Assembly: GCA_017557185.1 (NCBI GenBank)
Contig: JAFZAP010000014.1
Coordinates: 1-64,000 of the forward strand
Reading direction: 5' to 3'
DNA length: 64,000 nucleotides
DNA from: Prevotella sp.
GTDB taxonomy: Bacteria; Bacteroidota; Bacteroidia; Bacteroidales; Bacteroidaceae
The first letter of the stretch is position 1; each line of letters begins with the position of its first letter. The translations under genes and the position numbers were made by a program. The notes under the pieces are model-generated. The model saw only the letters and a list, made by a program, of their open reading frames with translations, made no database searches and was not told the origin of the DNA. Of the stretch, positions 12,776 to 61,645 are shown one piece after another.

Positions 12776-12821
12776 TGTTTTTATTACACCTTATTTATAA
12801 AATAATAAGGGGGGAGAGAAG

Positions 12822-12900
12822 GTCTTTTTCCCTACGCAGGCATTACCCTGTTCAGGTCAGAGGGTATAATCTCAGCATGCCACATGGCTAGCACCCCTTA
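12822..12900 (-). ncRNA. TPP riboswitch (THI box)
   Basis: Minus strand, in order: AAGGGGTGCTAGCC, CTGAGATTATACCC, CTGACCTGAACAGGGTAAT, GCCTGCGTAGGGA. These are the conserved THI-box blocks, including CTGAGA and the TAATGCCTGCGTAGGGA segment. It lies between the promoter at 12924-12954 and the receptor ATG at 12775. A small hairpin CCTTATT/AATAAGG (12789-12810) lies between aptamer and start codon. With no T-run after it, translational control is more likely than transcriptional termination. Confidence 0.93.
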
Positions 12901-12923
12901 ATCTACTGTTTGCAGATCGGGTG

Positions 12924-15160: not shown

Positions 15161-15194
15161 ACAAAACCCCGCAAATAACAATTTTTAATGTCGA

Positions 15195-15533
15195 GAGCGT
15201 ATGCTTTCGTGTGGGTGGAGCATTGCTTTCGTATGACTGGAGCATTGCTTTCATATATCTGGAGAAATGCTTTAGTTTAGCTGGAGAATTGCTTTTGTGA
15301 AGCTATCTCAATACTCCCATTCAGTAAATTAACTTAATTTGTTCGGTAAATTAACTTATTTTATTCAGTAAATTAACTTATTTTACTCAGCAAATTAACT
15401 TAATTTACTTATCAAATTAACTTAATTTACTTATCAATTTAAGTTAATTTACTGAACTAGGTCATTGCTCTTGTAAAACGGGAGCATGCATTCAGTCAGA
15501 TGAAAGGCCATATCTGGTATGATGAAAGCAATG
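15195..15533. repeat. 22-nt periodic intergenic array, locus 1
   Basis: The whole stretch repeats every 22 nt. Five units of the form GGAGCATTGCTTTCGTATGA start at 15195, 15217, 15239, 15261 and 15283. Six 15-bp palindromes of the form AAATTAACTTAATTT start at 15326, 15348, 15370, 15392, 15414 and 15436, separated by 7-nt spacers (GTTCGGT, ATTCAGT, ACTCAGC, ACTTATC, ACTTATC). Right-hand units include GGTCATTGCTCTTG and two copies of GATGAAAG 22 nt apart. No open reading frame and no promoter was seen in it. Loci at 36.4 and 61.0 kb have the same design. Confidence 0.9.
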
Positions 15534-15573
15534 AAAAAAAACACCCGCCAACACGTTGTGAGTGTGGCGGGTG
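15534..15573 (-). terminator. Terminator of the 15.6-16.6 kb lipoprotein gene
   Basis: Stem CACCCGCCA/TGGCGGGTG. On the minus strand it is followed by eight T residues. It begins 16 nt beyond the stop codon at 15590. Confidence 0.88.
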
Positions 15574-36358: not shown

Positions 36359-36437
36359 ATAAATAACCATTTTTTGTTATTATTTTGGAACTATATCTAT
36401 ACAATTTATAATCCCCGAAGCAAATGATTGGCTGTAT

Positions 36438-36742
36438 GGAGCAGTCTTTTCGTGTGTCAAGAGCAATCATCTCGTTTGCCCATCTCAATGCCCTTATGAT
36501 GCTAGAGCAATGAGGTAGAAAAGTAAATTAACTTAATTTGTTCGGTAAATTAAGTTATTTTATTCAGTAAATTAAGTTATTTTACTTACCAAATTAAGTT
36601 AATTTACTCATCAAATTAAGTTAATTTACTGATTAAAATAAGTTGATTTGCTAAATCGAAGCATTGTTCTCGCTATTTCGGAGCATTTCTCCAGCCACAC
36701 GAAAGCACTTCTCCAGCCTCACGAAAGCATTGTTCTTGCTCA
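36438..36742. repeat. 22-nt periodic intergenic array, locus 2
   Basis: Left units (22 nt each) start at 36438, 36460, 36482 and 36504: GGAGCAGTCTTTTCG, AGAGCAATCATCTCG, ATCTCAATGCCC and AGAGCAATGAGG. Six 15-bp palindromes of the form AAATTAAGTTAATTT start at 36525, 36547, 36569, 36591, 36613 and 36635, exactly 22 nt apart, with spacers GTTCGGT, ATTCAGT, ACTTACC, ACTCATC and ACTGATT. Right units are inverted: CACGAAAGCACTTCTCC and CACGAAAGCATTGTTCTT, 22 nt apart. It fills the gap between divergent promoters. Confidence 0.9.
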
Positions 36743-60894: not shown

Positions 60895-60997
60895 GCTACA
60901 AATATACACAAAAAAACGCAGAGTGGTATCGAAACAGCCGATTTTCCAACAATTATTAAGAAAGTATCAAGCGACACAGCAGGCTCCTACACAGCAT

Positions 60998-61302
60998 GGA
61001 GCATAGTTTTTATGTGGCTAAAGCAATCGTCTAGTTTGCCTAGAGCAATCATATCATTTTGCAAATTAAGTTGTTTTGTTCAGTAAATTAAGTTATTTTA
61101 TTGAGCAAATTAAGTTAATTTACCGAGTAAAATAAGTTAATTTACCGAACAAATTAAGTTAATTTACTGATCAAATTAAGTTAATTTACTGAATCAGGTC
61201 ATTGCTCTACACTTTTTAGGGCAATGCTCTCCATTCATCAGAGCATTGCTTTCGCACCATTAGGGCATTGTTTTTGCATCACTAGGGCATTTTTTGCACC
61301 AC
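60998..61302. repeat. 22-nt periodic intergenic array, locus 3
   Basis: Left 22-nt units start at 60998, 61020 and 61042: GGAGCATAGTTTTTATG, AAAGCAATCGTCTAG and AGAGCAATCATATC. Six 15-bp palindromes of the form AAATTAAGTTAATTT start at 61063, 61085, 61107, 61129, 61151 and 61173, each 22 nt apart, with spacers GTTCAGT, ATTGAGC, ACCGAGT, ACCGAAC and ACTGATC. Right units start at 61217, 61239, 61261 and 61283: TAGGGCAATGCTCTC, CAGAGCATTGCTTTCG, TAGGGCATTGTTTTTG and TAGGGCATTTTTTGC. No coding frame lies in it. Confidence 0.9.
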
Positions 61303-61322
61303 TTTACTTATTCACCGTCTGA

Positions 61323-61499
61323 GCCCCGACGGGGCGTTAAGACTACAGGCAGGGTGTGAAGTGCGAAGCACGACACCCCTGCTACTGATGTCAACAGAAT
61401 GTAAGTGCCGAAGGTACGACAGAATTCTGTCACCCCGTCGGGGTTTTGTTTTGTTGTTGCCCTTTTTGCAGGGTTTCGCTTCGCTTCACCCCTGCCTGT
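61323..61499. repeat. Imperfect long palindrome (possible MITE-like or structured element)
   Basis: ACAGGCAGGG (61345-61354) and CCCTGCCTGT (61490-61499) form outer arms that continue with GTGAAGTGCGAAGC against GCTTCGCTTCAC, a good but imperfect inverted repeat. Inside are CCCCGACGGGG (61324-61334), CCCCGTCGGGG (61433-61443) and the perfect palindrome ACAGAATTCTGT (61419-61430). No open frame with family features was found. A folded RNA or a non-autonomous mobile element both fit. Confidence 0.55.
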
Positions 61500-61645
61500 G
61501 TCCTGTCGCACTTTCAGTGCTCTATTTGGTCATCTACTTTATCATTACCATTTTTTTCTGGAAAAGTGGCGGCGGTTTGGAAAAAAAGAAGTAAATTTGC
61601 AAAGACAAACTAGACCTGCAATTAAGAATTTAAATCACGACAATC

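Follow-up and report, generated by a model that had tools for sequence, protein, structure and literature searches.

Intergenic arrays of palindromes in a 22-nucleotide register in Prevotella

Three gaps between genes in a 64-kb stretch of Prevotella DNA, the whole of which is referred to here as the window, hold A/T-rich palindromes that recur every 22 nt. What do such arrays represent: sites for a protein, a mobile element, operators, a structured RNA or tandem slippage? The window lies on contig C112 of a 3.35 Mb assembly of 116 contigs (G000), and the arrays were compared within this genome, with a sister species and across the Bacteroidales. At a probability of about one half, we read them as nucleoprotein platforms: sets of phased sites, spread through the genome as a discrete element, for a putative homodimer that is probably architectural.

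Arrays in the window

At up to two mismatches, the AT palindrome (AAATTAASTTAATTT) occurs 18 times in the window, and all of these matches belong to three arrays of six with exact 22-nt steps, as a sequence-only reading of this stretch had claimed. Tandem Repeats Finder returns the same 22-nt period at the three loci. With one mismatch allowed, 16 matches are present, against 0.0 expected from 20 first-order Markov simulations. Perfect or one-T variant palindromes gave no match inside called genes at the loci examined, in keeping with the non-coding placement that had been proposed.

Locus 1, on the forward strand, comprises left flank units -6 to -1 of the AGCAWTGCT type, with units -6 and -1 weak (15194-15318), a core of six AT palindromes at the 22-nt period with centres C, C, C, C, C and G (15326-15450), and right flank units 6 to 9, which are partly degenerate, unit 8 giving no match (15458-15538). 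Locus 2, also on the forward strand, has left flank units -4 to -1 (36437-36517), six AT palindromes with centres C, G, G, G, G and G (36525-36649), and right flank units 6 to 9 (36657-36737). Locus 3 lies on the reverse strand, with three flank units on its low-coordinate side (60997-61055), a core of six AT palindromes (61063-61187) and further flank units on its high-coordinate side (61195-61297). The spacer order GTTCGGT then ATTCAGT, noted earlier for loci 1 and 2, is seen on reading the sequence. The fragment reported at positions 1-48 is real, and consists of two flank-type units, AGCATTGTC and AACATTGCC, set 22 nt apart with no strand assigned; because contig C112 stops at position 1, it is probably the remnant of a fourth array that was cut by the assembly. 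Rfam gave six matches in the window, five tRNAs and one TPP riboswitch, none of them at the arrays; the riboswitch (12812-12908) is barely over the gathering score.

A composite element of about 14 units

Thirty-seven arrays were found in G000 by the core query and in the stretches fetched, together with a short remnant on contig C74 (a 41-bp match). This count may be too high by two or three, since the arrays on contigs C18, C33, C38 and C51 sit at contig ends and have near-identical cores. Contigs C16, C69 and C112 likewise start or end in or at arrays, and the practical consequence is that the arrays break assemblies. The genome contains 194 palindromes at up to one mismatch, and none matches the reversed-pattern control.

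Core units were counted, at up to five mismatches, in 79 arrays (37 from G000, 38 from the sister species RUG178 and 4 from other assemblies). Six units are present in 57 arrays, five in 7, eight in 6, seven in 5, four in 2, nine in 1 and eleven in 1, so that the earlier statement of exactly six holds as the mode but not as a rule, the other 22 arrays having 4, 5, 7, 8, 9 or 11. The canonical element comprises four flank, six core and four flank units, 14 in all (~308 bp), and is roughly dyad-symmetric, the right-flank consensus being the reverse complement of the left. The flank dyads, AGCAWTGCT, number about four per side and keep the register of the core, as had been suggested: among matches of at least 7/9 within 200 nt of the core in the arrays analysed, 222/248 on the left and 201/225 on the right lie at multiples of 22. 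The ends vary by whole units, and no fixed terminus was seen in the arrays.

Palindrome centres are often identical along one array. Across the six-unit arrays, left-hand centres tend to be C and right-hand centres G (unit 0: 41 C, 14 G; unit 5: 4 C, 53 G). In 480 core units selected at up to four mismatches, the preceding base is a pyrimidine in all 480 and the following base a purine in 477. The two half-sites vary independently overall, both being off consensus in 42 units against 36.6 expected (Fisher p 0.24). Independent half-sites bounded by a pyrimidine and a purine are as expected for a dimer on duplex DNA.

The flank dyad also forms arrays of its own. Pairs of AGCAWTGCT set 22 nt apart give 163 matches in G000 at up to one mismatch, with none for the reversed control. 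Among the matches listed, 20 places outside the AT arrays were fetched, and these carry arrays of the GC-type dyad GGAGCAWTGCTCC with no AT core, scored under a permissive rule at 6-12 units; one of them (L189) has a 1-nt register slip. The existence of GC-type arrays lacking an AT core indicates that the AT arrays are composites.

Shared and empty sites in a sister species

An exact two-unit pattern searched in a collection of 84,980 species occurs at 44 places in seven assemblies, 38 of which are in RUG178 (G330), a genome ~85% identical to the window species over aligned genes. RUG178 carries 38 arrays, compared with 37 in G000. For 14 G000 sites, RUG178 has an array that borders the same gene, or genes, with the sides in agreement. 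Ten unmatched G000 sites were searched in RUG178 through the ends of their flanking genes; two are array-free, one has an array with another core and seven are undecided. The array with another core, at the counterpart of L024 (L171:715-802), has AATATATCATATATT twice inside the usual flank units, and brings the firmly shared sites to 15/37. The conservation at gene borders by which the sequence-only reading had proposed to judge the arrays is thus present, and with six units as the mode and 15 of 37 sites in common, the arrays do not fit the slippage products of variable unit number and no conservation that it had named as the outcome against it. Two further pairings, L008/L043 and L038/L084, were not counted, having one neighbour each in common at an odd distance or with low identity, and L036/L068 was rejected as the same site because the aligned stretch is on the wrong side.

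The two array-free sites correspond to window locus 3 and L034. At the former, homology with RUG178 stops at 60964 and resumes at 61551; at the latter, the gap between genes is 304 bp shorter in RUG178, close to 14 x 22 = 308. For window locus 2, one of the seven undecided sites, the AT palindrome is absent within the 2 kb fetched at the likely RUG178 counterpart of the right-hand gene. A repeat of another kind (CCCCGACGGGG ... CAGGCAGGGTGTGAAG) adjoins array 3 in the window at 61320-61550. RUG178 loci L043 and L046 match this repeat and the array over ~440 bp, and the repeat is absent at the RUG178 counterpart of the locus 3 site.

Probable constraint on the dyads

Indels were compared in 20 pairs of arrays treated as orthologous, a set in which several pairs share members and which includes L036/L068, not the same site. 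The cores differ by three indels, each of 22 nt. Gaps in the wider arrays comprise whole units (22, 44 and 88 nt) and eight others (4, 5, 5, 6, 9, 11, 11 and 72 nt), most of the eight lying in outer flank units. With L036/L068 left out, flanking intergenic identity is 0.37-0.57 in 13/19 pairs, the other six belonging to close relatives or to the L031 and L020 groups.

Palindromes and spacers behave differently between the two species. Between 29 arrays of G000 and 26 of RUG178, the difference in palindrome columns is 0.026 (permuted, 0.027 +/- 0.005), and in spacer columns it is 0.149 (permuted, 0.100 +/- 0.016), about three s.d. beyond. Orthologous cores are 0.859 identical, compared with 0.840 for non-orthologous cores (14 pairs, L036/L068 left out; difference 0.019, s.e. 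0.015), and 4/14 orthologues rank 1-2 of 38; that orthologues barely stand out argues against plain descent with neutral change. In the set that includes L036/L068, core identity is 0.859 within G000, 0.839 within RUG178 and 0.846 between the genomes. As the within-genome values bracket the between-genome value, the cores appear held to a consensus, with no clear genome-specific homogenisation.

We read this pattern as stabilising selection on the dyads. Renewal from an unchanging master family could produce the same picture, since near-identical array subfamilies point to recent copying and slow turnover from a constant master could mimic stabilising selection. In 52 array pairs with cores at least 95% identical, which are not independent, flank identity is 0.74, 0.73, 0.70 and 0.57 at units 1-4, falls to 0.33 at unit 5 and is random (0.24-0.28) from unit 6.

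One register with different palindromes across the genus

Other Prevotella species have the same 22-nt architecture with different palindromes. The AT palindrome itself is rare, matching in 3/150 genomes of related species, the window's own included; with so many relatives lacking it, any function is not essential to the genus in this form. A search with locus 2, scoring two candidates per genome, matched 37/398 genus genomes, again counting its own. Other palindromes among the genus arrays include AAATYAATTTRATTT (G006), AAAATAAATTATTTT (G266), AAATTCACTGAATTT (G173) and AAAACAAATTGTTTT (G191). A generic four-unit 22-nt pattern at up to one mismatch is found in 147/398 genus genomes, a rough figure, because units with four-base A/T runs satisfy the reversed control too, which is therefore no null; matches were inspected for ~20 genomes. 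Three genomes (G120, G200 and G211) match only the reversed control, TTTN9AAA at 22 nt, with 244, 135 and 157 matches, respectively, and none to the main pattern; they perhaps hold further array families of opposite A/T polarity.

In G006, several 22-nt array classes occur side by side (L152-L168), of the AT core, CTGCGAG, CCTATGG and GATAATG types. Three of 17 loci bearing another palindrome in this genome share a neighbouring gene with arrays of G000 or RUG178, two of them on the same side, where a rough estimate gives ~1 expected. Scanned exactly over the order, the generic four-unit pattern matched 11/393 genomes, several plainly through AT-rich or simple-repeat noise; real-looking arrays are present in G608, G755 and G673. 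An exact scan of viral contigs for two adjacent AT palindromes gave no match, nor did blastn of locus 1 against plasmids and phages.

Possible roles of the arrays

Palindromic sites in intergenic DNA would suit operators through which a transcription factor acts on adjacent promoters. In gaps of at least 100 bp, convergent and divergent gene pairs number 20:11 among 81 gaps with AT or GC arrays and 18:35 among 134 without (p 0.012; fetched loci of G000 and RUG178 and five stretches of other assemblies, with genes called by a simple script and orthologous gaps counted twice). The 30 flanking proteins examined, from 16 sites, have ordinary roles in metabolism, the envelope and regulation, with no common function, and five of them lack a Pfam match. 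The relative excess between convergent genes and the ordinary neighbours argue against promoter operators, which we hold improbable, and fit an element that sits between transcription units; the G084 repeats described below lie between divergent genes in 0/21 cases. Penicillinase_R-type repressor genes adjoin two of the 16 sites (L012:4401-4772 and L014:3080-3466), both shared with RUG178; they speak for operators and might point the way to a dimeric DNA-binding protein. A transcribed RNA or extruded cruciform, in which the whole dyad-symmetric array would fold as one long stem, is suggested by the predicted stability, as RNA, of the window's three arrays, far greater than that of dinucleotide shuffles (z -7.4, -8.3 and -7.8), and by mirrored changes slightly in excess at position 5 of the palindrome (5 against 1.4 expected). 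However, any dyad array must fold stably as a single strand, and native 14-unit arrays (mean -90.8 kcal/mol, n=53) have weaker folds than chimeras of left and right halves from different loci (-103.8 kcal/mol, 12 permutations), the native fold beating the chimera mean in 6/53 arrays, so that the hairpin is not what is conserved. Left-right flank complementarity at matching distance in 71 arrays is no higher within loci than between them (five z, -2.6 to -0.1); over all 25 left-right combinations, two z are above +2 and three below -2. Mirrored compensation in the palindromes is absent overall and depleted at position 4 (7 against 18.3 expected). The chimera and covariation results outweigh the favourable z-scores, leaving the hairpin very improbable, and a dimer bound to duplex DNA is the reading that we prefer. 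Neutral slippage yielding a minisatellite of no consequence would account for the whole-unit gains and losses and for centres that are often the same along an array, but it sits badly with a six-unit mode in 57/79 arrays, with 37 arrays of one consensus, with diverged flank units that keep register and with palindromes fixed while spacers drift; we give it scarcely any credence.

A non-autonomous mobile or selfish element without a host role, in which the 22-bp units are sites for a transposase or copying enzyme and the half-arrays its inverted ends, is a possibility that we doubt but take seriously. It would explain a discrete copying unit with flank identity kept to unit 4 and random from unit 6 (the 52 pairs), presence and absence at orthologous sites (window locus 3 and L034) and reverse-complementary flank consensuses. 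The sites of MuA and TnsB are also 22 bp. Against it, neither a fixed terminus nor a target duplication was seen at the two array-free sites compared, and long-term site conservation and fixed palindromes are unexpected of a dead passenger. No transposase gene was noticed between two arrays in a search for Y1_Tnp, and the Y1/RAYT transposase, found in 9/31 genomes searched, is present in none of the array-rich genomes G384, G084, G017, G174, G191, G374, G342 and G356; with no correlation between Y1_Tnp and arrays across the 31 genomes, a link to RAYT was rejected. A RAYT/Y1-type protein of 176 aa, with the motif MPNHEHL that we take to be typical of the type, is encoded 1.2 kb from an array (L025:2293-2823). 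Even as a selfish element, it would show short repeats holding their register and number across species divergence in an unusual manner.

The nucleoprotein platform that we favour would work as follows. We infer a putative homodimeric, sequence-specific DNA-binding protein that binds each dyad (YAAATTAASTTAATTTR), one dimer per 22 bp, with the second dyad class GGAGCAWTGCTCC, in flanks and separate arrays, bound likewise. Neighbouring dimers would make contact, bending or wrapping some 130-300 bp of the intergenic stretch. The target of the array would be the chromosome, in its folding, supercoiling or organisation into domains between transcription units, and not a single promoter. A discrete element of about 14 units would have been dispersed, and its recognition sequence would have changed from one Prevotella species to another alongside the protein that binds it. 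The cooperative protein array proposed from the sequence alone agrees with the dyad register, the largely independent half-sites, the constant palindromes with drifting spacers and the whole-unit core indels; no cognate gene was recognised beside the arrays. Against the platform weigh the eight indels of the wider arrays that are not whole units, the register slip at L189, the orthologue signal, which is small but not zero, and the mirrored changes that are depleted at position 4 yet somewhat enriched at position 5. The accompanying suggestion, that two helical turns per unit place all palindromes on one DNA face, holds by arithmetic only at 11 bp per turn. In relaxed B-DNA (10.5 bp per turn), 22 bp is 2.1 turns, a drift of ~34 degrees per unit, and bound dimers would therefore trace a slowly winding path unless the DNA were underwound.

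More tentatively, Prevotella and a few other Bacteroidales genera may share a chromosomal system in which each genome carries dozens of dyad arrays in a 22-bp register, the sites of a putative fast-evolving homodimer. A new palindrome class would come to occupy the middle of older arrays (the AT core in GC-type arrays; the AATATATCATATATT core at the RUG178 counterpart of L024) without any change of register. Fixed geometry with changing letters points to a quickly evolving DNA-protein pair, for which the core is a good bait in finding the binding protein. If this is right, the Bacteroidales gain a candidate nucleoid-organising or insulating element.

Comparison with known elements

Iterons and the ParR/parC, Lrp and MuA/TnsB arrays likewise repeat protein sites in phase, at about 11 or 22 bp. 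These are single loci or element ends, whereas the arrays described here occur in dozens of copies per chromosome. REP/BIME elements are dispersed extragenic palindromes with regular spacing and alternating orientation in the part of the source available to us (PMC2817692). The window arrays differ in their fixed 22-nt dyad register, in their lack of correlation with RAYT, Y1_Tnp being found in 4/14 array-bearing genomes (G000, G330, G010 and G006), and in showing no sign of hairpin selection, the compensatory pairs amounting to a small excess at one position. BrickBuilt, a minisatellite-MITE of P. gingivalis, is likewise known to us from part of its description, as an intergenic element with 19 copies in one strain, built of tandem 23-nt direct repeats that are imperfect within and between copies (1 to 22.8 repeats per copy) and bounded by a leader and tail with terminal inverted repeats resembling IS5-family elements (PMC4596501). 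The period of the window arrays is 22 rather than 23 nt, and IS5-like leader and tail ends were not seen in them; their ends vary by whole units, with no clean target duplication at the two array-free sites compared.

The closest relative in kind is PINSR of P. intermedia, a 188-bp repeat of function not known; in the portion of the report consulted, it is intergenic, non-coding and dispersed, with 177 and 184 copies, no terminal inverted repeats and about three-quarters of its sites kept between two strains (PMC4755523). The window arrays resemble it in being intergenic, high-copy and non-coding and, as set out below, differ from it in build, so that the earlier statement that no named element has this design holds only in part. 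That portion of the report makes no mention of a 22-nt register (PMC4755523).

Genome G084 has 234 three-unit matches. Its repeats are built of units, AAAA-N7-TTTT, that follow one another in the 22-nt register in a nearly fixed order of different units. We take these to be PINSR from their size, copy number and intergenic place, rather than by a match to the published consensus. PINSR has one 188-bp consensus and the G084 repeats a fixed order of different units, in contrast to the homogeneous six-palindrome core set in flanks of another class in the window arrays, and the G084 units (AAAACCTACGCTTTT and others) are plainly unlike the AAATTAASTTAATTT cores. Over the first 0.27 Mb of one contig, 20 loci yielded 21 of the G084 elements, of which 18 lie downstream of a co-oriented gene; the arrays of the window species have no such orientation (16/28 co-oriented). 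Among the titles and abstract openings listed in searches of open-licence literature, none describes arrays of 22-nt period in Prevotella. What is new here is a 22-nt register shared across the genus by arrays of differing palindromes, the 4-6-4 composite, and evidence that the dyads are constrained. If our reading is right, PINSR and these arrays together form a single, so far unrecognised class of chromosomal element in a major genus of the gut, rumen and mouth, with geometry in common and sequence that differs by species.
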